Shown: one piece after another, positions 18,291-32,890 of the stretch
Layout: every line of letters starts with the position of its first letter
How positions within the stretch are numbered: position 1 is the stretch's first letter
Assembly: GCF_029887935.1 (NCBI RefSeq)
Contig: NZ_JARXRO010000014.1
Coordinates: 571,020 to 635,019, forward strand
Source: Luteimonas kalidii
GTDB lineage: Bacteria; Pseudomonadota; Gammaproteobacteria; Xanthomonadales; Xanthomonadaceae
DNA: 64,000 nt
Direction: 5' to 3'
Translations under genes and position numbers: made by a program
The notes under the pieces: model-generated
Seen by the model: the letters and a program-made list of their open reading frames with translations, nothing else
Databases searched by the model: none
Told to the model about the DNA's origin: nothing

Positions 18291-18464
18291 TTTAGCCGCG
18301 CGGCCCGCGCCCGGCCCGTGCCGGCGAAGGCCCATGCGCGCATCGATGCTTTCCGCGGCCGGCGCGATGGACCGCGCCCGCGCCTCCTGCCCTGCCGCCC
18401 ACGGGCGAAACGGTCGGGCGCGGCGCAGGCTGCGTGGCGGCCGCCTGCGCCCGGTCACGATGCG

Positions 18465-19478
18465 TCAGAGGCGGCGCTCCGGCGGTGCGGCGGTCGATCC
18501 GCGCAGCATCAGGCTGAAATCCAGGGTCTGCTGGTGCGGCACCTCGACCCCCTCGATGATGGCCAGCAGGAGCCGGGCCGCGCGGACGCCGATCTCCCGC
18601 ATGGGCTGGCTGATCGTGGTCAGCGGCGGGCTCAGGTAGCGCGAGGACGCCAGGTCGTCGAACCCGACCACCGAGAAATCCTCCGGCACGCGGATGTCCA
18701 GGTCCCGACACGCCGCGAGCACCCCCAAGGCCATCTGGTCGCTGAAACAGAACGCGGCGGTGGGCGCAGGCGCCTGGGCCAGGAACCGCGTCGCAGCCGC
18801 GTGGCCGGATTCCACCGAGAAGTCGCCGGGGACCGTCGTCAACACGTCCAGGCGGCCGTGCGCCCTGGCCGCGGCCATGGCCCCTTCCAGGCGCTGGCGA
18901 TGCAACGGATTGTCGGGCGGACCACCGACCACGGCGATCCGCGCGTGCCCCAGCGCATACAGGTGCTCCATCGCGGTGCGCGCCGCGGCCGCGTTGTCGA
19001 TGTGGACGCTGGGAATCCCCAGCGTCGGATCGAACTCGCAGCCGTTGACCACCGGCGCCCTCGCGCCGAGCTGCCGGACGATCTCCCGCGCCGTCGGCGG
19101 AAGCCGGTGGCCGAGGACGATCATGCCGTCGGCCTGGTTGCGCGGCAGCATCTGCGCGTAGCGCTCCTCGCGCTCCGCCTGGTGTTCGGTATCGCCGAGC
19201 AGGACCGCGTAGCCTGCGGCCTGCGCGGCCTCCTCCGCCCCCTTGAGGATCTGCGCGAAGAACGGGTTGCCGATGTCCGGCACCGTGATCAGGATCTTGC
19301 CGCTGCGCTGGGTCTTGAGCGTCCGTGCCGAGGCATTGGGGACATAGCCCAGCGCGGCGGCGGCCTGCTCGATGCGCCTGCGCGTGTCCGGCAGGACCTT
19401 TTCGGGCCGCGAGAGCGCGCGGGAGACGGTGCCTGCCGAGACGCCCACGTGCCTGGCGATGTCGTAGATGGTGGCCAT
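18465..19478 (-). CDS. LacI-family transcriptional repressor
   Basis: A 337-residue regulator. The N-terminal helix-turn-helix and hinge read MATIYDIARHVGVSAGTVSRALSRPEKV...NASARTLKTQRSGKI, followed by a periplasmic-binding-protein-like sensor domain (ILITVPDIGNPFFAQILKG, MIVLGHRLP, VVGGPPDNPLHRQRLEG, FCFSDQMALGVLAACRD, LTTISQPMREIG). The start at 19478 matches the family N terminus; a start at 19514 adds 12 residues. It lies at the left edge of the sugar-oxidation island, divergent from its first gene, with a perfect palindrome between them. It is inferred to repress both operons of the island; the inducer is probably a sugar or 3-keto-sugar derivative. Confidence 0.9.
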   Translation of the reverse strand: MATIYDIARHVGVSAGTVSRALSRPEKVLPDTRRRIEQAAAALGYVPNASARTLKTQRSGKILITVPDIGNPFFAQILKGAEEAAQAAGYAVLLGDTEHQAEREERYAQMLPRNQADGMIVLGHRLPPTAREIVRQLGARAPVVNGCEFDPTLGIPSVHIDNAAAARTAMEHLYALGHARIAVVGGPPDNPLHRQRLEGAMAAARAHGRLDVLTTVPGDFSVESGHAAATRFLAQAPAPTAAFCFSDQMALGVLAACRDLDIRVPEDFSVVGFDDLASSRYLSPPLTTISQPMREIGVRAARLLLAIIEGVEVPHQQTLDFSLMLRGSTAAPPERRL

Positions 19479-19534
19479 GTCCCCGTCCCCGGATGCGCGC
19501 GATGCAGTGCACAACGCGTGTCCCGATCATCGCA

Positions 19535-19543
19535 TGCTAGGAT
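19535..19543 (+). promoter_or_regulatory. candidate extended -10 promoter of the left sugar operon
   Basis: TGCTAGGAT resembles an extended -10 (TGn plus a TATAAT-like hexamer TAGGAT). No good -35 is present. The proposed LacI operator starts 3 bp downstream and would cover the transcription start, which suits repression. Confidence 0.35.
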
Positions 19544-19545
19544 CG

Positions 19546-19563
19546 GATGCAATCGATTGCATC
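19546..19563. promoter_or_regulatory. LacI-family operator, left copy (18-bp perfect palindrome)
   Basis: GATGCAATCGATTGCATC is perfectly symmetrical with a central CG and the AAnCGnTT core usual for LacI-family sites. It lies between the divergent repressor gene (start 19478) and the isomerase gene (ATG 19576), 12 bp before the latter. A 14-bp core of the same sequence recurs at 31501-31514 ahead of the opposing operon. Confidence 0.8.
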
Positions 19564-19575
19564 AGGTGGTTCGGC

Positions 19576-20628
19576 ATGCGGACACTGCAGGGCCCGGCGC
19601 TGTTCCTGGCCCAGTTCATCGGCGACGAGCCTCCGTTCGACCGCCTGGACACCTTGGCCCAATGGGCCGCCGGACTCGGCTATCGCGGCGTGCAGGTGCC
19701 GACCAGCGCGCCGCACATCTTCGATCTCGCCCGGGCCGCGGAGAGCCAGGCCTACTGCGACGACCTGGCGGGGATGCTGGCCGGCCACGGGATCCGGATC
19801 ACCGAGCTGTCCACCCACCTGCAGGGCCAGCTGGTGGCCGTGCACCCGGCCTACGACGCGCTGTTCGACGGGTTCGCCCCGGAAGACCGGCGCGGCAACC
19901 CGGCCGCGCGGCAGGCCTGGGCGGTGGAGCAGCTGAAGCTGGCAGCGAAGGCCAGCCGGCGCCTGGGGCTCACCGCGCACGCCACCTTCTCCGGCGCGCT
20001 CGCCTGGCCGTACCTCTATCCCTGGCCGCAGCGTCCGTCCGGCTTGGTGGATGAGGCCTTCGCCGAACTTGGCCGCCGCTGGCGCCCGATCCTCGACGTC
20101 TTCGACGAATGCGGGGTGGACCTGTGCTACGAGATCCATCCGGGCGAGGACCTTCACGACGGCGCGACCTTCGAGCGCTTCCTGGACTCGGTCGACCACC
20201 ATCCGCGCGCCAAGATCCTCTACGACCCCAGCCACCTGCTGCTGCAGCAGATGGACTACCTGGGATTCATCGACCGCTACCACGCGCGCATCGGCATGTT
20301 CCACGCCAAGGACGCCGAGTACCGCCCCGACGCGCGCAGCGGCGTGTATGGCGGCTACCAGGACTGGATCGACCGCCCCGGCCGGTTCCGCTCGCTCGGA
20401 GACGGCCAGGTCGACTTCAAGGCGATCTTCTCGAAGCTGGCCCAGTACGATTTCCCCGGCTGGGCGGTCGTGGAGTGGGAGTGCTGCCTGAAGCATCCGG
20501 AGGATGGCGCGCGCGAGGGCGCGGCCTTCATCCGCGAACACCTGATCCGCGTGACCGAGCACGCGTTCGACGACTTTGCCGGCAGCGGCGCCAGCCCACG
20601 GGCGCTGCGCGGCATGCTGGGGCTTTGA
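19576..20628 (+). CDS. sugar phosphate isomerase/epimerase (cytosolic)
   Basis: A 350-residue AP-endonuclease-2/xylose-isomerase-like TIM barrel without a signal peptide. Metal-site residues stand out: YEIHPGEDLHDG (Glu and His), LYDPSHLLLQQMDY (Asp and His), MFHAKDAEY (His) and VVEWECC (Glu). It resembles isomerases found with Gfo/Idh oxidoreductases in inositol or keto-sugar pathways. It is the first gene of the left operon, 12 bp after the LacI operator, and is followed by the transporter gene. It probably isomerises or epimerises a keto-sugar after uptake; the true substrate is unknown. The ATG at 19576 gives MRTLQGPALFLAQFIGD. Confidence 0.8.
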   Translation: MRTLQGPALFLAQFIGDEPPFDRLDTLAQWAAGLGYRGVQVPTSAPHIFDLARAAESQAYCDDLAGMLAGHGIRITELSTHLQGQLVAVHPAYDALFDGFAPEDRRGNPAARQAWAVEQLKLAAKASRRLGLTAHATFSGALAWPYLYPWPQRPSGLVDEAFAELGRRWRPILDVFDECGVDLCYEIHPGEDLHDGATFERFLDSVDHHPRAKILYDPSHLLLQQMDYLGFIDRYHARIGMFHAKDAEYRPDARSGVYGGYQDWIDRPGRFRSLGDGQVDFKAIFSKLAQYDFPGWAVVEWECCLKHPEDGAREGAAFIREHLIRVTEHAFDDFAGSGASPRALRGMLGL

Positions 20629-20671
20629 ATCCATACCGCGTGATGCGGACACCGACCTGGGAGGGGAAGTG

Positions 20672-21895
20672 ATGACGTCCACGATGTCGCGCCTCGGCGT
20701 GATGATGTTCCTGCAATTCTTCATCTGGGGCGCCTGGTTCGTGACCCTGGGCACGTACCTGGTCAATGGCCCGCTGCAGGCGAGCGCCAGCCAAGTGGCC
20801 ACGGCCTTCCTCAGCCAGTCCGTCGGCGCGATCGTCGCGCCCTTCCTGGTCGGGCTGATCGCCGACCGCTATTTCGCCGCGCAGCGCATCCTCGCCCTGC
20901 TGCACCTGGGCGGGGCGGCGCTGATGTGGGGCGCGTCCACGGCCACCAGCTTCAATACCTTCTCGGGGTTCGTGTTCGCCTACATGCTGCTGTTCATGCC
21001 GACCCTGGCGCTGGCCACCAGCATCGCGATGCGACACATGCAGTCGCCGGAGAAGCAGTTCCCGCCGGTGCGCGTGGCCGGCAGCATCGGCTGGATCGTC
21101 GCCGGCGTGCTGATCGGCTGGCTGGGCTGGGAGCAGACCCAGCGCCTGGACTTCACCTTCAGGATGGCCGCGATCGCGTCCGCGGTGCTGGGCCTGTACG
21201 CGCTGACCCTGCCGCACACGCCGCCGCTGGCGCGCAAGCAGGGTGCGAAGCTGGGCGAGATCCTCGGGCTGGATGCGGCGCTGCACCTGCTCAAGTCGCG
21301 GGCCTACCTGGTGTTCTTCCTGGCCTCGATCGCGATCTGCATCCCGCTGTCGTTCTACTACAACTTCACCAACCCCTTCCTCAACGACGTGGGCGTGCGC
21401 GGCGCGGCCGGGCTGCAGTCGCTGGGCCAGGTGTCCGAAGTGCTGCTGATGCTGGCCATGCCGTTCCTGTTCGTGCGCCTGGGGGTGAAGGTGATGCTGG
21501 CGGTGGGCATGGGCGCATGGGTGCTGCGCTACGTGATGTTCGCCTTCGGCGACGCGGACGCGGGTTTCGCGCTGCTGGTGATCGGCATCGTGCTGCACGG
21601 CATCTGCTACGACTTCTTCTTCGTCACCGGCCAGATCTACACCGACGCGCACGCCGGGCAGAAATTCCGCAGCAGCGCTCAGGGCTTCATCACCCTGGCC
21701 ACCTATGGCGTGGGCATGCTGATCGGCACCTTCCTGTCGGGCGCGGTCGTGGAGTACTACACCACCGAGGCCGGCCCGGACTGGGAGCGGATCTGGCTGT
21801 TCCCGGCCGGGGTCGCGTTCGTGGTGCTGGTGGCCTTCCTGTTCCTGTTCCGCGAAGGGCGGGCGGCGACGCCTGCCGCTTCGCCCGCGCACTGA
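20672..21895 (+). CDS. MFS transporter of the nucleoside/H+ symporter family
   Basis: A 407-residue membrane protein with about twelve hydrophobic segments. The N terminus ([23 protein letters not shown]) and segments such as [16 protein letters not shown] and [16 protein letters not shown] are characteristic of the NupG/XapB-like nucleoside-H+ symporter family of the major facilitator superfamily. In this island it more likely imports a sugar or keto-sugar across the inner membrane than a nucleoside; this is inference from context. It follows the isomerase by 43 bp with a ribosome site GAGGGGAAG just before the ATG, and precedes the Gfo/Idh gene by 7 bp. Confidence 0.85.
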
Positions 21896-21902
21896 GGTCG
21901 GC

Positions 21903-23030
21903 ATGATGAGTACGCTTGGAGTCGCCATCGTCGGCACCGGCATGATCGGTGCGGTGCATCGCCGCGCGGCGGTGCTGGCCGGCGCGACGGTCCGCGGCGT
22001 GGCCGCGTCCTCGCCTGCGCGTGCGCAGGAAGTGGCGCAGGCCTGGGGCGTGCCCCGGGGCTACGACGGGATCGAGGACGTGATCGCCGATCCGCAGGTG
22101 CAGGTCGTGCACGTCTGCACGCCCAACCACCTGCACCGGTCGATGGCGCAGGCGGCGCTGGAAGCGGGCAAGCACGTGGTCTGCGAGAAGCCGCTGGCCA
22201 CCACCCTGGAAGACGCGCGTGCGCTGGCGGCGCTGGCCGCCTCCACCGGGCAGGTGGCCACGGTGCCCTTCGTCTACCGCTACCACCCGGTGGTGCGCGA
22301 GGCGCGTGCCCGCATCGCCGCAGGCGACATCGGCCCGCTGCGCCTGATCCACGGCAGCTACCTGCAGGACTGGCTGCTGGATCCGGCCAGCAACAACTGG
22401 CGCGTGGATCCGGCGCTGGGCGGCGCATCGCGCGTGTTCGCCGACATCGGCTCGCACTGGTGCGACCTGGTGGAATGGGTCGGCGGCGAGCGCTTCGCCG
22501 AAGTCAGCGCGGTGTTCGAGACGGTGATCGCCGAGCGCGGCGTGGCCACCGGCAAGAGCTTCACCACGCCTGCGGCCGGTGGAGACACCCAGGCGGTGTC
22601 CAGCGAGGACGCGGCCGCGGCCATGTTCAGGACCGGCAACGGTACGCTGGCGACCGTCACCGTCAGCCAGGTTTCGGCCGGGCGCCGCAATCGCCTGTGG
22701 TTCGAGATCGACGGAGCGAAGGCCAGCGTGGCCTTCGACCAGGAGGACTGCGAGCGCCTGTGGATGGGCTATCCGGACCAGCGCGAGGAAGTGTTCGTGC
22801 GCGGCCCGGGCGCCGGCAGCGCCGAGCAGCGCCGGCTGTCGGTGCTGCCCGCCGGCCATGCGCAGGGCTATGCCAACTGCTTCGAGGCGTTCGTGGCCGA
22901 CACGTACCGGGCGATCGCGCGCGAACAACCGGAAGGATTGCCGACGTTCGAGGACGGCCTGCGTTCGGCGCTGATCGTCGATCGCGTCATCGCTTCGTCC
23001 AGGTCGCGCGCATGGACGCCGATCGCCTGA
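21903..23030 (+). CDS. Gfo/Idh/MocA-family NAD(P)-dependent oxidoreductase
   Basis: A 375-residue dehydrogenase. The Rossmann fold opens with [21 protein letters not shown]; the nucleotide-binding and catalytic segment [30 protein letters not shown] carries the diagnostic EKP lysine; the C-terminal domain includes [23 protein letters not shown], with the conserved Asp and His. It would oxidise or reduce a sugar carbon (commonly C3 of a pyranose) with NAD(P) in the cytosol, so it is the natural partner for reducing an imported 3-keto-sugar or continuing its oxidation. An ATGATG gives two adjacent possible starts (21903, 21906). It is third in the left operon. Confidence 0.87.
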
Positions 23031-23067
23031 GTTCCCGCGGCGCCCGGGATCCGTTCCCTGCCGCGCC

Positions 23068-23080
23068 GGTATCGTTTACC
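23068..23080. promoter_or_regulatory. weak inverted repeat ahead of the isomerase/DUF1080 fusion gene
   Basis: GGTATCGTTTACC has GGTA/TACC arms around a CG-containing centre, in the 250-bp gap before the fusion gene at 23281. It is reminiscent of a LacI-family half-conserved site but differs from the two clear operators. Treated as tentative. Confidence 0.2.
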
Positions 23081-23097
23081 TGCAGCGCGTCAAGGCA

Positions 23098-23222
23098 ATG
23101 CTGAAAAAGTCCGGTGTGTCACTCCGAACAAATTGAAAAGAGATTCACAACGGCGAGCCGGTCAATCTCGGGACATGAACGGCATGGATTTCTCGCTACG
23201 CTCGAAATGACAATTTGCCAGT
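23098..23222. repeat. AT-richer intergenic repeat remnant
   Basis: This stretch is clearly less GC-rich than its surroundings. Its right part (about 23179-23215) read on the minus strand contains TCATTTCGAGCGTAGCGAGA, a core seen dispersed between genes in many unrelated bacterial genomes; its spurious translation includes HFERSEKS. The left part contains CTGAAAAAGTCCGG and GTGTCACTCCGA. It is probably a non-autonomous mobile repeat relic lying inside the left operon gap. Exact ends are estimated from composition. Confidence 0.55.
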
Positions 23223-23280
23223 GTTGCCTTAAGCGCGGGTCGGATCCCGTTTGCCGTTACCACAATCTCTGGAGGACCCC

Positions 23281-24756
23281 ATGACGATCCATACCCTGCG
23301 CACGATCGCGGCCGCCGCGCTCGCGCTCTGCACCGCCCTGCCCGCCTGGGCGCAACCGGGCGATGCCACCGCCAAGCCCATCGCCGTGCAGATGTACACG
23401 CTGCGCAACGCCGGATCGCTCGAAGACCAGCTGAAGATCGTCCACGACGCCGGCGTCCGCGCGGTGGAGACGGTCGGGACGCAGGAGGTCCCCGCCGCGG
23501 CACTGAAACAGCTCCTGGACAAGTACGGGATCGAGCCGATCGCGGCCCACGTGGCGCTGTCCGACTTGCGCGGCGACCTGGACGAAATGGCGGCGTCCCA
23601 CCGGGCCATCGGCAACACGATGCTGGTGGTGCCCTGGCTGCAGGAATCCGAACGGCCGACCGACGCCGAAGGCTGGCGCGCGCTGGGCCGCGAGCTCGGC
23701 GCCCTGGCCGCACGCCTGCAGCCGATGGGCATGCGGCTGGCGTACCACAACCACGAATTCGAGCTGGTCGAGTTCGACGGCAGGACGGGGCTCGAGCTGC
23801 TGTTCGAAGCCGCCGGTCCGGCGCTCGCCGTCGAGCTGGACCTGGCCTGGGTGGCGCGCGCCGGCCACGACCCGGCGGCGTTCCTCGGCAGGTTCCCCGG
23901 GCGCGTGTACGCGGTCCACGCCAAGGACAACGCCCCGGAGGGCGAGGCGCAGGACGAACAGGGCTTCACCGCCCTGGGCCAGGGCGTGCTCGACTGGAAT
24001 GCGATCCTTCCCGCCGCCGCGGACGCGGGCGTGCAGTGGTACATCATCGAGCACGACCTTCCGCGCGATGCTGCCGCCGTCGTGCGGACGGGCGCGGCCT
24101 TCCTCGCCGAACACCTGCCATCCGACAACCAGCTGAGCAGGCAGGAACAGGCCGACGGCTGGCAACTCCTGTTCGACGGCAAGGATCTGTCGCAGTGGCG
24201 CACCTTCAAGCAGGAGGGGCTTGGCGACAAGTGGATCATCGAGGATGGCGCCATCAAGCTGACCGGCGCAGGCGGCGGCGACATCCTGACCAAGGCCCGT
24301 TACCAGGATTTCGACCTCAGGCTGGACTGGAAGATTTCGGAAGTCGGCAACAGCGGCATCTTCATCCTGGCGGACGAGACCGGCGAACACATCTACTCGC
24401 ACGCGCCGGAAATCCAGATCCTCGACAACGAGCGCCATCCCGACAACGAACTGGACACCCATCTGTCCGGCTCCCTGTACGACATGATCGCCTCGCCACC
24501 GGCCTCGCACCGGATCGCGGGTGAGTGGAACCGCGTGCGCATCCTGCTCGACCAGGGCCACCTGACCATCTGGCAGAACGGCGTGCAGACCGCATCGGTG
24601 GAGATCGGCAGCGCGGAGTGGAAGCGGCTGGTGGCGGCCAGCAAGTTCGCCGACTGGGCGGGATTCGCCGCCAACGCCAGTGGCCATATCGGCCTGCAGG
24701 ACCACGGCGACGTGGTGTGGTTCAAGAACCTCAAGATCAAAGAACTGAAGCGATGA
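23281..24756 (+). CDS. exported sugar isomerase fused to 3-keto-disaccharide hydrolase (DUF1080)
   Basis: A 491-residue two-domain protein. Residues 1-25 form a Sec signal peptide (MTIHTLRTIAAAALALCTAL, cleavage near AWAQ). Residues about 32-275 are a sugar phosphate isomerase/epimerase TIM barrel with metal ligands in YHNHEF (155-160), VELDLAW, VHAKD and IIEHD. Residues about 292-489 are a DUF1080/3-keto-disaccharide hydrolase (PF06439) domain: GWQLLFDGKDLSQW, DFDLRLDWKISEVGNSGIFI, PEIQILDNERHPDNE, WNRVRILLDQGHLTIWQNG, HIGLQDHGDVVWFKNLKI. DUF1080 enzymes cleave 3-keto-glycosides. The pair would act in the periplasm on one substrate. The ribosome site GGAGG precedes the ATG. Its stop overlaps the GMC gene start (ATGA). 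Confidence 0.85.
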   Translation: MTIHTLRTIAAAALALCTALPAWAQPGDATAKPIAVQMYTLRNAGSLEDQLKIVHDAGVRAVETVGTQEVPAAALKQLLDKYGIEPIAAHVALSDLRGDLDEMAASHRAIGNTMLVVPWLQESERPTDAEGWRALGRELGALAARLQPMGMRLAYHNHEFELVEFDGRTGLELLFEAAGPALAVELDLAWVARAGHDPAAFLGRFPGRVYAVHAKDNAPEGEAQDEQGFTALGQGVLDWNAILPAAADAGVQWYIIEHDLPRDAAAVVRTGAAFLAEHLPSDNQLSRQEQADGWQLLFDGKDLSQWRTFKQEGLGDKWIIEDGAIKLTGAGGGDILTKARYQDFDLRLDWKISEVGNSGIFILADETGEHIYSHAPEIQILDNERHPDNELDTHLSGSLYDMIASPPASHRIAGEWNRVRILLDQGHLTIWQNGVQTASVEIGSAEWKRLVAASKFADWAGFAANASGHIGLQDHGDVVWFKNLKIKELKR

Positions 24757-26432
24757 ACGATTTCGCCCACCACGTGCTGGTCGTCGGCTCCGGCGCCGGC
24801 GGCGCCATGGCCGCGTACGAACTGACCCGCCAGGGCCACAAGGTGCTGCTGCTCGAAGCCGGCCGCCACTACGACCCGACCACGGAAACGCCGATGTTCC
24901 GGCCCAATGGCGACGCACCGCTGATGGGCGCTTCCACGCCGGACAAGGACTTCGGCTTCTACGATTCCACCGTGGGCGGCGGCTGGGAGGTGCCGGACGA
25001 GCCCTACACCACCGCCGAAGGCACCGAGTTCCTGTGGTGGCGTGCGCGCATGCTGGGCGGGCGCACCAACCACTGGGGCCGGTACGCGCTGCGTTTCAGC
25101 GAACACGACTTCAAGGCAAAGAGCCGGGACGGCCTCGGCGCCGACTGGCCGTTCGAGTACGACGAGATCGCCCCCTGGTACGACAAGACCGAAGCACTGG
25201 TGGGCGTCTGCGGCACCAATACCGGCCTGGACGACATGCCGCCGTCGTCGGACGGGGTCCTGCAGCCGGCCCCGACGCCACGGATACCGGAACTGCTGAT
25301 CGCCGCCGCGGCGAAGAAGCACGGCATCGAGGCAGCGCCGATGCACCGGGCCATCCTGACCCGGGCGCTGGATCAGCGCGCGCCCTGCTTCTGGGCCACG
25401 CCCTGCGGTTACGGCTGCTCGATCGGCGCGGCGTTCCAGACCACCACCTCGCTGTTGCCGATGGCGCAGGCCACGGGCCACCTGCGGGTCATCACCGACG
25501 CCATGGTCAAGACCGTGACCACCGATGCAGGCGGCAACGTCACGGGCGTGAGCTATGTCGACAAGACGACCGGCACCGAACGGCAAGTGGACGCGAAGGT
25601 GGTGGTCCTGGCCGCCAGCGCCTGCGAGACGGCGCGCATTCTGCTCAATTCCAAGAACGCCAGTCATCCCGACGGACTCGCCAATTCCAGCGGCCAGGTC
25701 GGTCGCAACCTGATGGACTCCACCGGCGCGGGCCTCTCGGCGCTGGTCCCGGCCCTGATGGACCGGCCGCGCTACAACGAGGACGGCCACACCGCCAACC
25801 ACCTGTTCATACCCTGGTGGGGCCACCAGGCGCATGCCAACGGAGAACTGGATTTCCCGCGCGGCTACCACTTCGAACTGGGCGGACGCTTCGGCGAGCC
25901 GGGCGCCTATGTCAGTGGCGACCTGCAAGGCTATGGCCCCGCGCTGAAACAGCAGGTGCGCGCGCACTACGGTGCCTACGTGCACTTTGCGCTCCGTGGC
26001 GAGATGCTGCCGAACGACGACTGCTACATGGACATCGACCCGAGCGTCACGGACAAATGGGGCATCCCGGTGCCGCGTTTCCACTGGAAATGGTCCGAGC
26101 ACGAACTCAAGCAGGTCGAGCACGGCCTCAAGACCGCCAAGGCCATCCTGGAAACCATGGGCGCGACCGTCGGCGAGTTGCCTGCCGCTGAAGAGGCGAT
26201 CAAGAAGGGGGGCGAGATCATCCACGAGGTCGGCACCACCCGGATGGGCGACTCACCCGAGGACTCGGTGACCAACCAGTGGGGCCAGACCTGGGACTGT
26301 CCCAACCTGTTCGTGATGGACGGCGGCGTGTTCGCCTCCAATCCGCACAAGAACTGTACCCTGACCATCATGACGCTGGCGATGCGCAACAGCGCCTGGC
26401 TGGCCGACCAGCTCAAGACGGGGGCGCTGTGA
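24753..26432 (+). CDS. GMC-family FAD oxidoreductase, catalytic subunit (left copy)
   Basis: A 559-residue flavoprotein starting MNDFAHHVLVVGSGAGGAMA (FAD-binding GxGxxG). The C-terminal active-site regions are IIHEVGTTRMGDSPEDSVTN (catalytic His) and NPHKNCTLTIMTLAMR (second catalytic residue region). A CFWATPCGYGC segment gives C-x5-C-x3-C, the spacing that holds a 3Fe-4S cluster in bacterial FAD-dependent glucose dehydrogenase alpha subunits. There is no signal peptide; export would depend on the Tat signal of the next gene's product, as in gluconate 2-dehydrogenase complexes. It probably oxidises a glycoside hydroxyl, likely C3, given the DUF1080 partner. Overlaps on both sides (4 bp upstream, 1 bp downstream). 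Confidence 0.87.
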   Translation: MNDFAHHVLVVGSGAGGAMAAYELTRQGHKVLLLEAGRHYDPTTETPMFRPNGDAPLMGASTPDKDFGFYDSTVGGGWEVPDEPYTTAEGTEFLWWRARMLGGRTNHWGRYALRFSEHDFKAKSRDGLGADWPFEYDEIAPWYDKTEALVGVCGTNTGLDDMPPSSDGVLQPAPTPRIPELLIAAAAKKHGIEAAPMHRAILTRALDQRAPCFWATPCGYGCSIGAAFQTTTSLLPMAQATGHLRVITDAMVKTVTTDAGGNVTGVSYVDKTTGTERQVDAKVVVLAASACETARILLNSKNASHPDGLANSSGQVGRNLMDSTGAGLSALVPALMDRPRYNEDGHTANHLFIPWWGHQAHANGELDFPRGYHFELGGRFGEPGAYVSGDLQGYGPALKQQVRAHYGAYVHFALRGEMLPNDDCYMDIDPSVTDKWGIPVPRFHWKWSEHELKQVEHGLKTAKAILETMGATVGELPAAEEAIKKGGEIIHEVGTTRMGDSPEDSVTNQWGQTWDCPNLFVMDGGVFASNPHKNCTLTIMTLAMRNSAWLADQLKTGAL

Positions 26433-27220
26433 TGCCGAACCCAGAGGACAAGGGCATTGCCGCCCGAACCGACAGCGACGCGCCCGTGTACGCGCACAAG
26501 CTGACCCGACGCGATTCGCTGAAGCTGCTGGCCGCACTGGCGGCAAGCGCCATGCTGCCTGCATTGTCCGCCTGCTCGTCGCCATCGACGGGCGATGCCG
26601 CCGATAGCCTCGCGGATGAGGGGCATTGGCCGGAGCTGGACCTGCAGCCGGTGACGGCCAAGGGTTACGGCAAGGATCCGAACCTGATGGTGCCGCCGGA
26701 AACGCCCTGGCCGCTGACGTTGACGCCCGCACAGCTGTCGCTGCTGGCAGTGCTGTCGGACATCATCGTGCCGGCGGAAGGCGAGTCGCCCTCGGCATCC
26801 GCGGCGCAGGTGCCGACAGTCGTCGACGAATGGGTGAGCGCGCCCTATCCCGACCAGCAGCAGGACCGGTTGACCGTGCTGTCGGCCCTCGCCTGGCTCG
26901 ACGACGAAGCCGCCCTGCGCTTCTCGCAGCCGTTCGCGGCGCTGGACACGGCGCAGCAGCTGGCGATCATCGACGACATCGCGTATCGCAACGACCAGAC
27001 CCCACGGCAGTTCCAACGCATCGCGGGGGCGTTCTCCCGGCTGCGCAACCTGGTCCTGGCGGCCTACTTCTGCACGCCGGACGGCATGCAGGACATCGGC
27101 TACATGGGCAACGTGGCCATTGCCGGCGATTACCCCGGCCCGACGCCGGAAGCCTACGGCCATCTGGAGACGGTGCTGGCGGACCTCGGGCTCAGCGAGT
27201 TCGCCTATCCCGTGGGCTGA
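26432..27220 (+). CDS. Tat-exported gluconate 2-dehydrogenase subunit 3-like protein (left copy)
   Basis: A 262-residue small subunit. An N-terminal cytoplasmic stretch leads to a twin-arginine signal (LTRRDSLKLLAALAAS) that ends in a lipobox-like LSAC (cysteine near residue 46), so it may be a Tat-exported lipoprotein. The rest is the GLUCDH_gamma domain: LLAVLSDIIVPAEGESPSA, VPTVVDEWVSAPYPDQQQ, ending EFAYPVG. Such subunits chaperone, export and anchor the flavoprotein partner. It begins inside the GMC stop codon (TGATG). It is longer than the 191-residue right-hand copy by a hydrophilic N-terminus and an extended linker. Confidence 0.82.
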   Translation: MPNPEDKGIAARTDSDAPVYAHKLTRRDSLKLLAALAASAMLPALSACSSPSTGDAADSLADEGHWPELDLQPVTAKGYGKDPNLMVPPETPWPLTLTPAQLSLLAVLSDIIVPAEGESPSASAAQVPTVVDEWVSAPYPDQQQDRLTVLSALAWLDDEAALRFSQPFAALDTAQQLAIIDDIAYRNDQTPRQFQRIAGAFSRLRNLVLAAYFCTPDGMQDIGYMGNVAIAGDYPGPTPEAYGHLETVLADLGLSEFAYPVG

Positions 27221-27304
27221 CCGTCGTACCCGGCATCCGGGCAGCGCGCGACCGCACCAGCACCATCGCTCGCTGTCCGGAAGGGTCCGGGGTTACGCGC
27301 GCCG

Positions 27305-28081
27305 CTAGAGTTCCCGCACCCAGATGTTGCGGAAGCTGACCTCGGAGTCGTGGTCCTGCAGGGAGATCGGGGCGCAGCCGTGCGGAGAATACGAAGGCGG
27401 CCCCCGGTATTCGGTGGTGCCGGCGATGACGGTGTCGTCCTGCACCAGCACGCCGTTGTGCAGCACGGTGATGCGCGCGGGTGACAGCAGGCCACCGCCT
27501 TCGGAGAAGCGCGGCGCCTTCCAGATGACGTCATAGGACTGCCATTCGCCCGGCGGGCGCGAGGCGTTCACCAGCGGGATCGCCTGCTTGTAGATCGAGG
27601 CCGCCTGGCCGTTGGGATACGTGGGGTTGTCGTGGCTGTCGAGCACCTGCAGTTCGTACAGCTCCTGCAGGAAGATGCCGCTGTTGCCGCGGTTCTGGCC
27701 GTCGACACCGCGGGTCTGCGCCGGACTGCGCCATTCGACGTGCAGCTGGATGTCGCAGAAGCGCTGGCGGGTGCGGATGCCCTTGCTGCCGGGCACCACG
27801 GTGAGCGCGCCATCGGCCACGCGCCACGGCGCATCACCGCCCTGCTCCGACTCCCACGCGGCCAGGCCGCTGCCGTCGAACAGCACCACCGCGTCCGACG
27901 GCGCCGCGCCCACGGGCGTGGCCACGACCGCCGGCACCGGGGTCCAGGCTTCGGTCTTCTCCGGATCGGCCGCGGGATCGTGGGCGAGCGCAGCGGCACT
28001 GGCCACCATGCCAGCGGTGAGCAGGAGCGCGCGTGCGGCCATGTGGTGGCGTGGCGAAGAGTGACGGCGGCGGCGCATCAT
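27305..28081 (-). CDS. exported 3-keto-disaccharide hydrolase (DUF1080)
   Basis: A 258-residue protein with a signal peptide (basic MMRRRRHSS start, hydrophobic ARALLLTAGMVASAAAL, cleavage near ALAH) and one DUF1080 domain: VVLFDGSGLAAWESEQG, DIQLHVEWRSPAQ, GNSGIFLQELYELQVLDSHDNPTYPNGQA, WQSYDVIWKAPRF, GPPSYSPHGCAPISLQDHD, SFRNIWVREL. The family cleaves 3-keto-O-glycosides; this is the second such enzyme in the island and carries no isomerase fusion. The ATG at 28081 overlaps the stop of the small-subunit gene (ATGA); in-frame ATGs at 28093 and 28042 are alternatives. It is the last gene of the right operon and ends convergent to the left one. Confidence 0.85.
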   Translation of the reverse strand: MMRRRRHSSPRHHMAARALLLTAGMVASAAALAHDPAADPEKTEAWTPVPAVVATPVGAAPSDAVVLFDGSGLAAWESEQGGDAPWRVADGALTVVPGSKGIRTRQRFCDIQLHVEWRSPAQTRGVDGQNRGNSGIFLQELYELQVLDSHDNPTYPNGQAASIYKQAIPLVNASRPPGEWQSYDVIWKAPRFSEGGGLLSPARITVLHNGVLVQDDTVIAGTTEYRGPPSYSPHGCAPISLQDHDSEVSFRNIWVREL

Positions 28082-28653
28082 CGTGTCGCCCATGCCGGCG
28101 TGCCCGGCTCGTAGGGCAGGTCACCGTCATAGCCCCCGGGCACCGGGTCGTAGCGCAGGACTTCGGTGGCGCCCACCTCCGATGTGAAAAAGCTGAAGAG
28201 CACCAGCTGCTTGATCATCGTGAAGGAGTGCATCCCGCTCCCGCTGCCGGATCCGTCGGCGGCCACCCACGCCCGGCGGGCCTGTTCGCCCGCCTCCCGG
28301 TCCAGCGTGGTGAGCATCTTCAGGCGGGCCGCGGGCGGCAGGGCCATGAAGCTTCCGGACGCGCGCTGGTCCAGGTCCGCCAGCCCGGCGCGAAAGGCGG
28401 CCTGGTCCTCGGGGGTGTAGCAGTCGGTGACGAAGCGCGCCATGAACGAGCCCACCTCCGCATCCTTCGCCCCGGGCGTGTCGGTGCGCGGGATAATGGT
28501 CTCTGCGATCTCGTCCAGCAGCGCCACTTCGTCGGCGGTGAAGCCGGCGGCGGCCTGCGGGACGGGCGCCTGCCCGAGCACGAAGGCCGGCATGCCGACC
28601 ATGGCCACACCGGTGGCGGACGCGATCATCTTCAGCAGTTCGCGACGGTCCAT
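28078..28653 (-). CDS. Tat-exported gluconate 2-dehydrogenase subunit 3-like protein (right copy)
   Basis: A 191-residue GLUCDH_gamma-type small subunit starting MDRRELLKMIASATGVAMVG, a twin-arginine signal peptide (RRELLK) with cleavage near VLGQA. The domain shows FTADEVALLDEIAETIIPRTDTPGAKDAEVGSFMARFV and ends with LVLFSFFTSEVGATEVLRYDPVPGGYDGD, the conserved C-terminal tyrosine/proline-rich part. It would carry the neighbouring GMC subunit through the Tat pore and hold it in the periplasm. Its ATG overlaps the GMC stop by 1 bp (TGATG) and its stop overlaps the DUF1080 start, so all three are coupled. Confidence 0.88.
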   Translation of the reverse strand: MDRRELLKMIASATGVAMVGMPAFVLGQAPVPQAAAGFTADEVALLDEIAETIIPRTDTPGAKDAEVGSFMARFVTDCYTPEDQAAFRAGLADLDQRASGSFMALPPAARLKMLTTLDREAGEQARRAWVAADGSGSGSGMHSFTMIKQLVLFSFFTSEVGATEVLRYDPVPGGYDGDLPYEPGTPAWATR

Positions 28654-30338
28654 CACAGGTTCCCCGCCTTGAGTTCGCGCACCGCATGGTCGGCGGCGCG
28701 CGCGGTCAATGCCATGTAGGTCAGCGACGGGTTCACGCAGCTGGCCGAGGTCATGCAGGCGCCGTCGGTCACGTACACGTTGGGCGCGTCCCACACCTGG
28801 TTGTGCCCGTTGAGCACCGAGCTCTTCGGGTCGCGGCCCATGCGCGCGGTGCCCATCTCGTGGATCGCCCGGCCGGGCGCGGGCTCGGCTTCGTAGGTCC
28901 GCACGTCGCGAACGCCCGCCGCTTCCAGCATCTCGGCGGCATCGGCGGCCATGTCCTTGCGCATGGCCCGCTCGTTGTCGCGGATCGACACGTCCATCGC
29001 CAGCACCGGCAGGCCCCACTTGTCCTTGGTGCCGTGGTCCAGGCGGATGGTGTTGTCGTGGTAGGGAAGCATCTCGCCGAACGCGGTCATGCCGATGCTC
29101 CAGTCGCCCGGCACGCTCGCGGCCTGCTTCAGGCCCGCGCCGATGCCCATTTCGGCGACGCTGCGCGACCAGTCCTGGCGGCTCGCGCCCCCCTGGTAGC
29201 CGAAGCCGCGCAGATAGTCGCGGCGGTCGTCGCCGACGTTGCGGAAGCGCGGAATGTAGAAGCCGCAGGGGCGGCGTCCGGAGTAGTACCTGTCCTCGAA
29301 GCCGTCCACGACGCCCTGGGCGCCGGCTTCGAAATGGTGGTCCATGACGTTGTGGCCCAGCTCGCCGGACGAGGACCCCAGCCCGCCTTCCCACACGTCG
29401 GTGGCCGAGTTCATCAGCACCCAGGTCGAATTGAAGCTCGATGCGTTGAGGAAGATCACCTTGGCCGTGTACTCGTAGGTCTGGCCGGTCTCGGCGTCCA
29501 CGATCTCGACGCCGCGCGCGCGCTTGCGATCCTTGTCGTAGAGCACCTGCCGCACGATCGAGAACGGGCGCAGGGTGAGGTTGCCGGTCTGCATCGCAGC
29601 CGGCAGGGTGGCCGACTGGGTCGAGAAGTAGGCGCCATAGGGGCAGCCCAGGATGCACTTGTTGCGGTACTGGCAGTTGGCCCGCCCCTGCTCCGGACGC
29701 GGTTCGGTGATGTTGGCGGTGCGCGAGTGGATCATGTGACGGCTGCCGCCGAAGGCCTTGCGGATGCGCGCGGCCACATCCTTCTCGACGACGTTCAGCG
29801 GCACCGGCGGCAGGAACTTGCCATCGGGCAGCACGTCCAGGCCTTCGACCGTGCCGGCGATGCCGGCGAACGTCTCGACGTGGTCGTACCAGGGCGCGAG
29901 GTCCTCGTAGCGGATCGGCCAGTCGACGGCGATGCCCTCGCGCGCGTTGGCCTCGAAGTCCATCCGCGAGAGGCGGTAGCTCTGCCGGCCCCACATCAGC
30001 GAGCGACCGCCGACGTGGTAGCCGCGGAACCAGTCGAAGCGCTTGGTCTCGGTGTACGGGCAGTCCTTCTCGTCGGCCCACATCCCGTAGGTGCTCTCCG
30101 ACAGCGGGTAGTCGCGGCGCAGGACCGGGTGCGCTTCCTTCATCGCCTGGGTGGGCACGTTGCGGTGCGGGTAGTCCCACGCCTCCTTGTGCGCGTTGAC
30201 GTAGTCCTTGATGTGCTCGATGTTGCGGCCGCGCTCGAGCATCAGCACCTTGAGTCCCTTCTCGGCCAGTTCCTTGGCGGCCCAGCCGCCGCTGATGCCC
30301 GAGCCGACGACGATCGCGTCGTAATCATTGTTCGCCAT
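28653..30338 (-). CDS. GMC-family FAD oxidoreductase, catalytic subunit (right copy)
   Basis: A 561-residue flavoprotein, MANNDYDAIVVGSGISGGWA, with FAD-binding motif, a NCQYRNKCILGCPYGAYF segment (C-x5-C-x3-C, possible 3Fe-4S ligands), and active-site blocks AIHEMGTARMGRDPKSSV and SASCVNPSLTYMAL. It is clearly homologous to, but divergent from, the left copy: the second block reads CVNPSLT here and HKNCTLT there. No signal peptide; Tat export through its small subunit is inferred. It probably oxidises a glycoside to a 3-keto-glycoside, similar in type to bacterial glucoside 3-dehydrogenases. No cytochrome c subunit gene accompanies it. Confidence 0.88.
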   Translation of the reverse strand: MANNDYDAIVVGSGISGGWAAKELAEKGLKVLMLERGRNIEHIKDYVNAHKEAWDYPHRNVPTQAMKEAHPVLRRDYPLSESTYGMWADEKDCPYTETKRFDWFRGYHVGGRSLMWGRQSYRLSRMDFEANAREGIAVDWPIRYEDLAPWYDHVETFAGIAGTVEGLDVLPDGKFLPPVPLNVVEKDVAARIRKAFGGSRHMIHSRTANITEPRPEQGRANCQYRNKCILGCPYGAYFSTQSATLPAAMQTGNLTLRPFSIVRQVLYDKDRKRARGVEIVDAETGQTYEYTAKVIFLNASSFNSTWVLMNSATDVWEGGLGSSSGELGHNVMDHHFEAGAQGVVDGFEDRYYSGRRPCGFYIPRFRNVGDDRRDYLRGFGYQGGASRQDWSRSVAEMGIGAGLKQAASVPGDWSIGMTAFGEMLPYHDNTIRLDHGTKDKWGLPVLAMDVSIRDNERAMRKDMAADAAEMLEAAGVRDVRTYEAEPAPGRAIHEMGTARMGRDPKSSVLNGHNQVWDAPNVYVTDGACMTSASCVNPSLTYMALTARAADHAVRELKAGNL

Positions 30339-30367
30339 TGAGACTGTGTTCCTGGTTGAGGCGGGGG

Positions 30368-31240
30368 TTACACGTCGCACAGCCGGATGGCCTCGCGCAG
30401 CGAGGCGACCGGATCCGGCGCCGACGGCATGAATTCCTGTGCGATGTACCCGTCGAATCCGGTCTCGCGGATCGCGCGACAGATGGCCGGGTAGTTCAGT
30501 TCCTGGTCCTCGCCGATCTCGTGCCGGCCCGGCACGCCCGCCGTGTGGTAGTGCACGAACCAGCGGTGGTGGCGACGGATGGTGGCGATGATGTCGCCCT
30601 CCATGATCTGCATGTGGTAGATGTCGTAGAGCAGGCCGAAGTGGACCGACCCGAGCGTCTCGCACAGCTCGACGCCCCAGGCGGAGCGGTCGCACAGATA
30701 GTCGGGGTGGTCGACGCGCGAGTTCAGCAGTTCCATCACCAGCCTGACGCCGCGCTTTTCCGCATGCCCGAGGAGGCGCTTGAGGCCGGCGGCCGAATTG
30801 GCCAGGCCTTCGGCCGGGTCCATGCCGCCGCGGTTGCCGGAAAAGCAGATCAGGTTGCGGTAGCCGGCATCGGCCACCAGGTCGATATGGCGGGTGTAGC
30901 GCGCCACCAGCTCGTCATGGAAGCGGGTGTCCGCGAACCCCTGCTCCAGCCCGAGTTCGGCGCCGTTGCACATCGAACTGTCCACGCCATGCGACTTCAG
31001 CGTGGACCAGTCGTCCGGGCCGACCAGGTCGATGGCGGAAAAGCCGATCTGCTTCACGATCCGGCACAGCTCGGCGATGGGCGTCTGCCCGAACGTCCAG
31101 CGCGCGACGGAATGCTTCAGATTGCCCTTCAGCGGCTGGACGGGAGTATCGGCCGCCGGCACCAGACCCGAGGCCGCCAGTCCCAGTCCGCCCACCATCG
31201 TGGCGCGCAGCGCGTCGCGCCGGGTGAATGTGTGCTTCAA
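30368..31240 (-). CDS. Tat-exported sugar isomerase/epimerase (TTG start)
   Basis: A 290-residue TIM-barrel isomerase of the AP-endonuclease-2/hydroxypyruvate-isomerase type. The N terminus MKHTFTRRDALRATMVGGLG is a twin-arginine signal peptide (TRRDALR), placing it in the periplasm. Metal-site residues: VMELLNSRVDHPDY (Glu), LLYDIYHMQIMEG (Asp, His), YHTAGVPGRHEIG (His) and IAQEFMP (Glu). The start is TTG at 31240: a GGGAGG ribosome site lies 6 bp upstream and no in-frame ATG or GTG gives a signal peptide. It is the first gene of the right operon, about 260 bp downstream of the second LacI operator and 29 bp before the GMC gene. Confidence 0.82.
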   Translation of the reverse strand: MKHTFTRRDALRATMVGGLGLAASGLVPAADTPVQPLKGNLKHSVARWTFGQTPIAELCRIVKQIGFSAIDLVGPDDWSTLKSHGVDSSMCNGAELGLEQGFADTRFHDELVARYTRHIDLVADAGYRNLICFSGNRGGMDPAEGLANSAAGLKRLLGHAEKRGVRLVMELLNSRVDHPDYLCDRSAWGVELCETLGSVHFGLLYDIYHMQIMEGDIIATIRRHHRWFVHYHTAGVPGRHEIGEDQELNYPAICRAIRETGFDGYIAQEFMPSAPDPVASLREAIRLCDV

Positions 31241-31748
31241 GTCAGGCCTCCCGGGTCTGCCCAAATGGCGGTTCCGGCATTGCGCCCGCCCCGGCGGACT
31301 GTACGTCCGCCGGGCGGTGCCGCCGCCTAGGCATGGAAGATACGTCGCGCGGCCACCGGGGCAACCGCCGGCAGACAGGTTCATGAATCGCGGTGACGGG
31401 AGCGCGCGCGCGAGGCGCGGCAGCCGCATTCGGTCTGGTCGACGAAACGCCCATGCTCCACCGGCCTCCCAACCGGTACAGACACACGAATCCGCTCGGA
31501 TGCAATCGATTGCACGATAGCAACAGCGCGCCCGATTGCAAGGTCCGCCGGTGGATTCCGTCGCCCGCCAGCCGGCGTATCCGGCATTGGGCAAGCGGCG
31601 TGGATGACCCGCGCGATGGACTCCTGAAAGGGGCCCGCTGAACTTCCGGGCCCGGCAGGCCGGTTGGGAGCGGCGCGGCGCTTGCCGCTGCGCGGTGTGG
31701 AACAGAGCGGCTTTAAACCCTGGCCCGCGCGCCCGCATCGGACTCGAT
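31241..31748. other. non-coding gap between right sugar operon and ECF sigma gene
   Basis: About 500 bp without a convincing gene. It contains the second LacI operator (31501-31514) about 260 bp before the TTG start at 31240, implying a long untranslated leader for the right operon. A GGAAC element at 31699-31703, 46 bp before the sigma-factor ATG, resembles an ECF -35 and could allow autoregulation, but no matching -10 is certain. Nothing else was recognised. Confidence 0.5.
31501..31514. promoter_or_regulatory. LacI-family operator, right copy (14-bp palindrome)
   Basis: TGCAATCGATTGCA is identical to the core of the operator at 19546-19563 and is also perfectly symmetrical. It lies upstream of the right operon on its minus strand, where TTGCTATCG immediately precedes it as a possible promoter element. 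A 14-bp exact match 12 kb away, flanking the same gene set, supports one repressor controlling both operons. Confidence 0.78.
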
Positions 31749-32333
31749 ATGCTGACGGCGACGATGAGTGCATCCCCGGAAGAGGCGGGCTCCGCGACCG
31801 ACCTGGACCACGCGCTGGCGCGGGCCTCGGCCGGCGGCGACATGGCGGCGTTCGAGACCCTGTACCGGCGCCATGCCGGGCGCGTGCACGGCGTGATCCT
31901 GCGTCTGGTGGGCCACCAGCATGCGCGCGCGGAGGATCTCACCCAGGAAGCGTTCGTCCGCGCCTGGCAGGCACTGCCGACGTTCCGGTACGAAAGCGCG
32001 TTCGGCACCTGGCTGCACCGGCTGGCCGCCAATACCGCGCTGATGGAACTGCGCAGCCGCCGCAGCGCCCCGGGCATGGACACCGACGAGGACGCACTGG
32101 ACGCGGTCGGCAGCGTCGACTCGGCCGGCCACGCGACGGCGCTGTCGATGGACCTTGAGCAGGCGGTGGCCAGCCTGCCGCCACGGGCACGCGCGGTGCT
32201 GGTGCTGTACGACATCGAAGGCTGGAAGCACGAGGAGATCGCCGGCACGCTGGACATGGCGGTCGGCAGTTCGAAGGCACAACTGCATCGCGCCCGCAGG
32301 CTGCTGCGCGCGAAGCTGGGAGACCACGCATGA
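31749..32333 (+). CDS. ECF-type RNA polymerase sigma factor
   Basis: A 194-residue sigma-70 family protein. Region 2 is RHAGRVHGVILRLVGHQHARAEDLTQEAFVRAWQALPTF and region 4 is SLPPRARAVLVLYDIEGWKHEEIAGTLDMAVGSSKAQLHRARRLLR, both typical ECF. It redirects RNA polymerase to a stress or envelope regulon that cannot be read from sequence. The start at 31749 was chosen; an in-frame ATG at 31764 is equally possible, and neither has a strong ribosome site. The stop overlaps the next gene start (ATGA), the classic sigma/anti-sigma arrangement. Confidence 0.87.
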   Translation: MLTATMSASPEEAGSATDLDHALARASAGGDMAAFETLYRRHAGRVHGVILRLVGHQHARAEDLTQEAFVRAWQALPTFRYESAFGTWLHRLAANTALMELRSRRSAPGMDTDEDALDAVGSVDSAGHATALSMDLEQAVASLPPRARAVLVLYDIEGWKHEEIAGTLDMAVGSSKAQLHRARRLLRAKLGDHA

Positions 32334-32890
32334 CCCACGACCCGACCGACCACGACCTGCCCGCCACGCTGCGCCTGCAACTGCGCGGATTGCGGCGCGA
32401 CGAGCCGCCGGCGCGCGACTTGTGGCCCGACCTCAGCGCGCGCCTGGCGGTCGAACCCCGGCAGCCGCCCGTCCGCCCTGCGGCCCGCCCGCGCGCGCTA
32501 CCGGCCCTGGCCGCGGCGGCGGTGCTGGCGCTGGCCCTGGGGCTGGGATGGCAGTTGCGGCCCGATACCGCGGTGCCCGTTCCCGTCGAGGCGCCCGCAC
32601 CCACTCCGGCGGCCGCTCCCGGCGCCGCGCCCGCGGACGCACCCCGCACGCCCGCCCCGCTGGTGGTGCAGGCCGATGCCATGGCCCGCGAGTACGAAGG
32701 CGCGCTGCGCGAGCTGACCGCGGCGCGTCCGCCGGTCGCCGGCCACCCCGCCCTGATCGAGCTCGACCGCAGCGCGGACGACGTGCGCCAGGCGCTGGCG
32801 CACGATCCCGACGCCGTATTCCTGCTCCAGCGCCTGCAGCGTGTGTACGCGCAGCGGCTGTCGCTGACCCAACGCCTGGCCCGGGCCTGA
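32330..32890 (+). CDS. putative anti-sigma factor
   Basis: A 186-residue protein with an N-terminal soluble region (about 1-55) containing RDEPPARDLWPDLSARL, one membrane segment (about 58-76, ALPALAAAAVLALALGLGWQL), a Pro/Ala-rich linker and a C-terminal helical region. Translational coupling to the ECF sigma gene, cytoplasmic N-terminus and single membrane span match anti-sigma factors, although a zinc-binding HxxxCxxC motif is absent. It probably holds the sigma factor at the membrane until an envelope signal arrives. Function is inferred from context and topology. Confidence 0.6.
   Translation: MTHDPTDHDLPATLRLQLRGLRRDEPPARDLWPDLSARLAVEPRQPPVRPAARPRALPALAAAAVLALALGLGWQLRPDTAVPVPVEAPAPTPAAAPGAAPADAPRTPAPLVVQADAMAREYEGALRELTAARPPVAGHPALIELDRSADDVRQALAHDPDAVFLLQRLQRVYAQRLSLTQRLARA

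Follow-up and report, generated by a model that had tools for sequence, protein, structure and literature searches.

Two convergent operons with a putative LacI operator as a probable single 3-keto-glycoside pathway in Luteimonas kalidii and related Xanthomonadaceae

Within a 64,000-nucleotide stretch of Luteimonas kalidii DNA (contig NZ_JARXRO010000014.1, positions 571,020 to 635,019 of the forward strand; hereafter the window), eleven genes fill positions 18465-31240 and are arranged as two operons that face each other. We consider it likely that this island encodes one catabolic pathway for glycosides, spread over both operons and controlled by a single LacI-type switch, to which an additional oxidation-and-cleavage cassette has been joined in this lineage. 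An earlier note, made from the letters of the DNA, had proposed a periplasmic oxidative metabolism of 3-keto-glycosides by pairs of GMC flavoproteins and twin-arginine translocation (Tat) small subunits together with DUF1080 proteins and TIM barrels, and this is supported by the sequences analysed below. Its outer coordinates also hold, position 31514 being the final base of a perfect operator-like palindrome.

The left arm begins with lacI on the minus strand (18465-19478), a LacI-family regulator gene (PF00356 and PF13377; most similar to CytR, with 321 bits for that NCBIfam model vs its cut-off of 436), and continues on the plus strand with isoA (19576-20628), mfs (20672-21895), gfo (21906-23030), a gene for a 491-residue protein made of barL (23281-24120) and dufL (24121-24756), then gmcL (24753-26432) and tatL (26432-27220). 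The fused gene overlaps gmcL by four bases at its end and gmcL overlaps tatL by one. Converging on it and entirely on the minus strand are isoR (30368-31240, the TTG start of which is a guess), gmcR (28653-30338), tatR (28078-28653) and dufR (27305-28042, or to 28093 from a possible earlier start). The eleven proteins were searched with Pfam profiles and NCBIfam models, solved relatives were sought in the PDB and signal peptides were judged by eye. Pfam recovered every family that had been named for the island, with PF01261 (AP_endonuc_2) matched three times, PF06439 (the DUF1080 domain 3keto-disac_hyd), GMC and PF13618 twice each, and the LacI regulator, the major facilitator transporter and the Gfo/Idh enzyme confined to the left arm as described. 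Both PF06439 scores (168 bits for dufL, 147 for dufR) exceed the curated cut-off of 26.8; those of the PF13618 subunits are 81 (tatL) and 116 (tatR), and at E <=0.001 the island holds the only two matches to each of these families in the 3.96-Mb genome. The left DUF1080 turned out not to be a gene of its own, as had been supposed: it is the C-terminal part of the 491-residue protein, which joins it to an N-terminal AP_endonuc_2 barrel, so that the left arm has two barrels.

An argument for a single unit comes from the relatives. When isoR was searched at E <=1e-60 against 395 sampled genomes of the family, representing 54 genera, 79 genomes from eight genera matched, six of Luteimonas and 73 others. 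We fetched the loci of all 79, the 73 coming from seven other genera (handles are G for a genome and L for a fetched locus stretch, for example G018 and L257), and 71 of the 73 were complete, L269 and L277 being excluded as interrupted by contig ends. All 71 carry the same nine-gene core, lacI with isoA-mfs-gfo-barL facing dufR-tatR-gmcR-isoR, and the conservation of this layout is far beyond chance. The expectation of the earlier note that the two arms would co-occur in relatives was thus borne out by gene order in other genera. None of the 71 contains dufL-gmcL-tatL, and one of them (L257) has a broken barL. One named example is Xanthomonas sacchari NZ_CP010410.1 (L311); this 508-kb record is labelled a plasmid, and the presence of murD close to the island suggests a chromosomal fragment instead.

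These loci also bear on the origin of the two arms, which the earlier note had taken for two sets of the same modules, duplicated and diverged to serve two substrates or consecutive steps on one. The GMC, PF13618 and PF06439 families are each represented in both arms. However, identity between the arms is 33% for GMC, 21% for the Tat subunit and 26% for DUF1080, lower than that to outside relatives, gmcL being 72-82% identical to Alteromonadales-type proteins and gmcR 77% identical to a Palleronia protein; an internal operon duplication was rejected on this comparison. The three barrels isoA, barL and isoR differ in their nearest relatives, and the 71 complete loci hold both arms with a single GMC set. 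In Palleronia sp. LCG004 the order isoA, gfo, three ABC transporter genes, barL, isoR, gmcR, tatR, dufR runs in one direction, so that seven core genes of both arms are co-directional there. We therefore regard duplication as very improbable and favour a single pathway distributed over two operons. Other arrangements were found in Paracoccus, where barL faces dufR-tatR-gmcR-isoR, and in Ketogulonicigenium, where lacI, isoA, gfo, gmcR, tatR and barL are co-directional. Four island-free Luteimonas genomes (G046, G038, G003 and G022; L151-L154) have other DUF1080 loci with other gene orders, and in G046 GMC-PF13618 pairs lie in both directions with different barrels.

In the single pathway that we propose, a GMC flavoprotein exported with its Tat small subunit would oxidise the glycoside at C3 in the periplasm. 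The barL domain, of the O-glycoside beta-eliminase (OGE) type, and probably the DUF1080 proteins would then cleave the glycosidic linkage in a beta-elimination to give the aglycone and 2-hydroxy-3-keto-glucal; mfs would import the latter, isoA would hydrate it to 3-keto-glucose in the cytoplasm, and gfo would reduce this to glucose. The trio dufL-gmcL-tatL, which sits between the two arms and whose dufL is fused to the eliminase, would act as an additional oxidation-and-cleavage cassette. For levoglucosan, work with purified enzymes described in PMC7676230 established the same order of oxidation, elimination, hydration and reduction.

Two of these steps have specific sequence counterparts in the island, a beta-eliminase with its active-site residues and a hydratase homologue. 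The barL domain, which has a signal-peptide-like N-terminus, is 57.9% identical over 254 residues to the OGE of Agrobacterium tumefaciens (AtOGE; PDB 8bvk) and conserves four of its active-site residues, E39, H134, E161 and H189; for AtOGE, Glu39 and Glu161 are described at the metal, His134 as catalytic, and H134A and H189A variants are reported (PMC10628242). The isoA protein aligns end to end with PDB 8ro4, named 2-hydroxy-3-keto-glucal hydratase (E 6e-180), and is probably cytoplasmic, no signal peptide being seen by eye. For the C3 dehydrogenase and the 3-keto-glucose reductase the matches are at the level of families, namely the GMC-PF13618 pairs and Gfo/Idh/MocA (PF01408), gfo being the probable reductase, and mfs is a transporter of the Nuc_H_symport family (PF03825, 374 bits). 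The three proteins isoA, barL and isoR that had been called isomerases have different nearest solved relatives, namely a hydratase, a beta-eliminase and a remote protein that we take to be hydroxypyruvate-isomerase-like. The isoR protein carries a Tat motif, and we infer a role for it in the pathway.

Both GMC proteins have an N-terminal flavin adenine dinucleotide (FAD) motif, and their nearest solved sequences are FAD glucose dehydrogenase and fructose dehydrogenase (FDH; PDB 6a2u and 7w2j). They share a C-x5-C-x3-C motif, which in gmcR aligns with that of FDH and which we take to be the ligand motif of a [3Fe-4S] cluster. No signal peptide was seen in either of them and both PF13618 partners bear a Tat motif, which fits carriage of the flavoprotein by its small subunit; export of the GMC proteins would thus be piggy-backed. 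Ratios of nonsynonymous to synonymous substitution (dN/dS) vs G024 and G027 were 0.054 and 0.150 for gmcR and 0.104 and 0.202 for gmcL, values that indicate purifying selection, and both genes are thus probably functional. For tatR no solved relative was found in the PDB at E <=0.1. Several solved DUF1080 proteins match dufL, and dufR, which has a signal-peptide-like N-terminus, matches PDB 4qhz (E 3e-71). As had been noted, no ordinary glycoside hydrolase (GH) is present, none of the eleven proteins matching a GH family at E <=0.001; the suggestion that oxidative cleavage may replace hydrolysis finds no support at the level of the whole organism, which has five GH3-domain matches elsewhere in its genome.

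A common switch for the two operons is suggested by the perfect palindrome TGCAATCGATTGCA, found at 19548-19561 between lacI and isoA and again at 31501-31514 upstream of isoR, and at no further place in the whole genome when one mismatch was allowed. Among 52 genomes of the genus exact sites occur in seven, which are the seven that carry the island; of the 14 exact sites in these genomes 13 lie at island promoters and one elsewhere (in G024), the right site of G018 having one mismatch. Allowing two mismatches, the site stands before isoA in all 77 fetched loci that show this gene (61 exact), starting 28-30 bp ahead of the isoA alignment in each, and upstream of isoR in 79/79 (57 exact); those of X. 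sacchari have one and two mismatches. Exact sites were present in 62 of the 79 fetched loci vs none for palindromes built from shuffled half-sites (199 draws, repeats possible). The locus thus combines a regulator gene with a conserved palindrome at each promoter, the pattern of a local LacI-family regulon, and both operons are probably controlled by the local LacI through TGCAATCGATTGCA as a putative operator. We did not find this sequence in the literature searched, and the main text of a paper on LacI regulons (PMC4052901) makes no mention of Xanthomonads, Stenotrophomonas or 3-keto compounds.

The dufL-gmcL-tatL trio has a different set of relatives from the core. Among the best 80 of 104 gmcL relatives, four were Luteimonas records with the complete two-armed island in the same order and 76 were loci outside Luteimonas, of which 58 have the order dufL-gmcL-tatL; their hosts are mainly Pseudoalteromonas, Rheinheimera, Thalassotalea and other Alteromonadales. 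At E <=1e-120 only 7 of the 395 genomes in the family sample had a gmcL match, six being Luteimonas and one giving a partial match of 55%. By its sequence the left DUF1080-GMC-Tat trio is therefore an additional cassette that resembles the Alteromonadales one. In each of 12 loci examined outside Luteimonas, DUF1080 has a frame of its own, 233-328 residues long and with a signal-peptide-like start by eye, and dufL is likewise separate, with such a start of its own, in Luteimonas wenzhouensis (G050, L087). In the other six of the seven Luteimonas islands it is fused to barL. At the joint DNQL is kept in 6/6 and preceded by Ala in 4/6, an arrangement also seen behind the signal peptide of the unfused protein; the joint of G018 differs from that of the other five. 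No other match spanning barL and dufL was present among the matches listed from 398 genomes of the phylum (55 matched, at most three candidates per genome scored), 24 other loci of the phylum gave no single continuous match joining the two domains, and none of the 144 records that matched in a plasmid collection reached 80% coverage of the query. A candidate barL fusion in L257 was discarded, barL being broken there over two frames.

Several observations weigh against our reading of the island. The gfo protein falls below the cut-off of every NCBIfam model that it matched (196 bits for levoglucosan dehydrogenase, cut-off 650), and the solved relatives of isoR are remote (best PDB 3ngf, E 3e-15). 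The palindrome, at up to two mismatches, is absent from the five outgroup stretches L148, L312 and L339-L341, which represent the Alphaproteobacterial relatives Paracoccus, Ketogulonicigenium and Palleronia, Halomonas and G416, so that the operator is a feature of the islands of this family. The third exact palindrome of G024 lies outside the island (position 5101 of L161, G024:C17:602100); it sits in a longer perfect inverted repeat just after a gene that by eye encodes a phytoene-desaturase-type FAD oxidoreductase, and may be a terminator or else a stray site. The island itself encodes no cytochrome c, CXXCH being absent from every frame of window positions 18001-32000. A core-gene tree with 80 tips and its root on G416 places G018 together with cassette-free islands (support 100 and 95); the seven cassette islands are thus not a clade, and a single simple insertion does not fit.

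Finally, the DUF1080 proteins may be lyases, hydratases or hydrolases. Were they hydratases or true hydrolases, barL would be the sole eliminase, the fused protein would make 3-keto-glucose on its own and isoA would take leaked product. The joining of two consecutive steps in one polypeptide would be sensible on such an account, and PMC9007349 cites BT2157, which is a DUF1080 protein, as a hydrolase of 3-ketotrehalose. However, isoA is already a hydratase match and is conserved with the rest of the core, and the second DUF1080 protein, dufR, is unfused. We hold this account to be rather doubtful and retain elimination as the probable role of the DUF1080 proteins.

The place occupied by the cassette is variable across the family. 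In X. sacchari a gene for a 98-residue cytochrome c follows barL, and 65 of the 72 non-Luteimonas loci with a readable barL-dufR interval have a CXXCH-bearing homologue there, the other seven having no CXXCH frame in it. None of the seven Luteimonas islands has a match to this cytochrome, and the best match in the L. kalidii genome covers 50 residues of a 920-residue frame (E 0.0065). The LacABC-type 3-dehydrogenase consists of a flavoprotein, a PF13618 subunit and a cytochrome-type third component, and the complexes of FAD glucose dehydrogenase and FDH also have a cytochrome subunit; at the L. kalidii locus the flavoprotein and PF13618 components are present and the cytochrome-type one is missing. 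In Rhizobium radiobacter a mono-heme cytochrome is described as the electron acceptor of glucoside 3-dehydrogenase (PMC9915066), and by analogy the island cytochrome c of the relatives probably serves gmcR.

The cassette itself may depend less on such a partner. We assembled 70 loci longer than 9 kb with gmcL and tatL relatives and no lacI match, eight of them from Opitutae/Verrucomicrobia records, and found a CXXCH frame near gmcL in 16, of which only that of L079 was cytochrome-like by eye. After its Tat motif, tatL has a lipobox-like Cys (LSAC in L. kalidii) in five of the seven Luteimonas islands (not G027 and G050) and in 42/63 sequences elsewhere, with some Cys in 53/63, and no lipobox Cys was present in any of 79 tatR. 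Given this lipobox and the rarity of cytochromes near gmcL, a gmcL complex tethered to the membrane and without need for an island cytochrome is plausible. Four loci carry other inserts in the middle slot. Between the arms L253 (11022-13523) encodes a Tat-motif protein that by eye resembles GH36-type alpha-galactosidases, L257 (8284-13311) has 5 kb of inserted repeated genes, some large and some small, beside the broken barL, and the barL-dufR intervals of L302 and L303 have, by eye, ketopantoate-reductase-like and SIS-domain regulator-like genes and no cytochrome c. We would tentatively combine these observations, as one possibility among others, into a picture of the middle slot as an exchange slot. 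In most islands of the family it would hold a cytochrome c that takes the electrons of gmcR; in Luteimonas it would hold a second dehydrogenase with a usually lipoprotein-like Tat subunit, elsewhere mostly cytochrome-free, as a membrane-tethered oxidase replacing the soluble outlet. At least two separate deletions would then have fused dufL to OGE and produced a double-headed enzyme for 3-keto-glycoside cleavage in the periplasm.

The surroundings of the island and the trees bear on the history of the cassette. In six Luteimonas genomes the island adjoins a fumarase gene, with a sigma-factor gene on its other side in four of them (not G027 and G050), and the two genes are adjacent without an island in three of ten other fumarase regions fetched (L192, L194 and L199). 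L199 is the empty fumarase region of G018, whose island is on another contig. The six fumarase-side islands form a clade in the core-gene tree (support 100), and in a tree of the cassette genes the seven Luteimonas sequences are separate from the seven Alteromonadales-type sequences used. The placement of G018 together with the two fusion joints suggests that the cassette entered twice or moved between islands. It could also have been ancestral to the islands of the family, the cassette-free lineages having since lost it or taken cytochrome c in its place: on the G416 root the earliest branch is that of the six fumarase-side islands and G018 lies in the other clade, a pattern that two losses would explain as well. 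Yet no cassette is found in the Paracoccus, Ketogulonicigenium, Palleronia and Halomonas stretches or in G416, the joint of G018 is different, the cassette exists elsewhere as an independent trio, and the root is a long branch (1.08). We therefore judge an ancestral cassette unlikely and keep to two entries or a transfer between islands. A replacement of cytochrome c by the cassette in all seven islands was weakened as a candidate, the five outgroup stretches having neither and only G018 nesting among mostly cytochrome-bearing islands.

Reports of non-hydrolytic glycoside breakdown exist for Agrobacterium, Caulobacter, Bacillus and gut bacteria, and the chemistry is thus known elsewhere. In gut bacteria, Nasseri (Nature, 2024) reportedly found interchangeable modules for oxidation, elimination and hydration in a step-wise non-hydrolytic route, with dehydrogenases said to be of the Gfo/Idh type vs the GMC/Tat pairs of Luteimonas. 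One of the systems closest to the island is the GlycDH-OGE-HYD-Gfo operon of A. tumefaciens, which like it has a dehydrogenase, an OGE (58% identical to barL), a proposed hydratase that is a second sugar-phosphate-isomerase-like protein, and a Gfo oxidoreductase, and the co-expression of Rhizobium GIN611 GlycDH with a Tat-pathway protein resembles the GMC/Tat pairs (PMC10628242). That description gives one putative operon and no DUF1080 protein, whereas Luteimonas has two operons and two GMC sets, and its OGE bears a signal peptide and is fused to DUF1080. In the lacABC locus of Caulobacter crescentus, which also has DUF1080 proteins (PMC9007349), the dehydrogenase has three components vs two per set in Luteimonas, which differs further in its two GMC sets, facing operons and fused cleavage protein. 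The LgdA/B1/B2/C enzymes of Bacillus smithii, as described in PMC7676230, perform the same four steps with two sugar-phosphate-isomerase-like enzymes and a Gfo/Idh reductase, on an anhydrosugar substrate and with a first oxidation that is NAD-dependent.

What is new here is the family-wide two-operon regulon, its variable middle slot and the OGE-DUF1080 fusion. The earlier note had thought that the two-armed layout may be undescribed; neither it nor the locus was found among the papers listed from the literature searched, which is weak evidence of novelty as subscription papers lie mostly outside that search, and the layout is common in the family and thus not special to this strain. If our reading is correct, a compact version of this metabolism with a single local repressor occurs in no fewer than eight genera of the family, to which Xanthomonas belongs. 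The clean operator would make the inducer, and hence the natural substrate, directly testable, and the variable slot and the fused protein would illustrate how the oxidising and cleaving ends of the pathway change around a fixed cytoplasmic end.

Rfam gave no match in 18000-32500, and scans for promoter-like and terminator-like elements were at the level of shuffled sequence (1 found vs 0.9 expected, and 5 vs 4.7). Between gfo and barL, in a gap of 250 bp, we observed TTTCTCGCTACGCTCGAAATGACA at 23189-23212, a single copy in the window that we take to resemble a dispersed repeat of this bacterial group.

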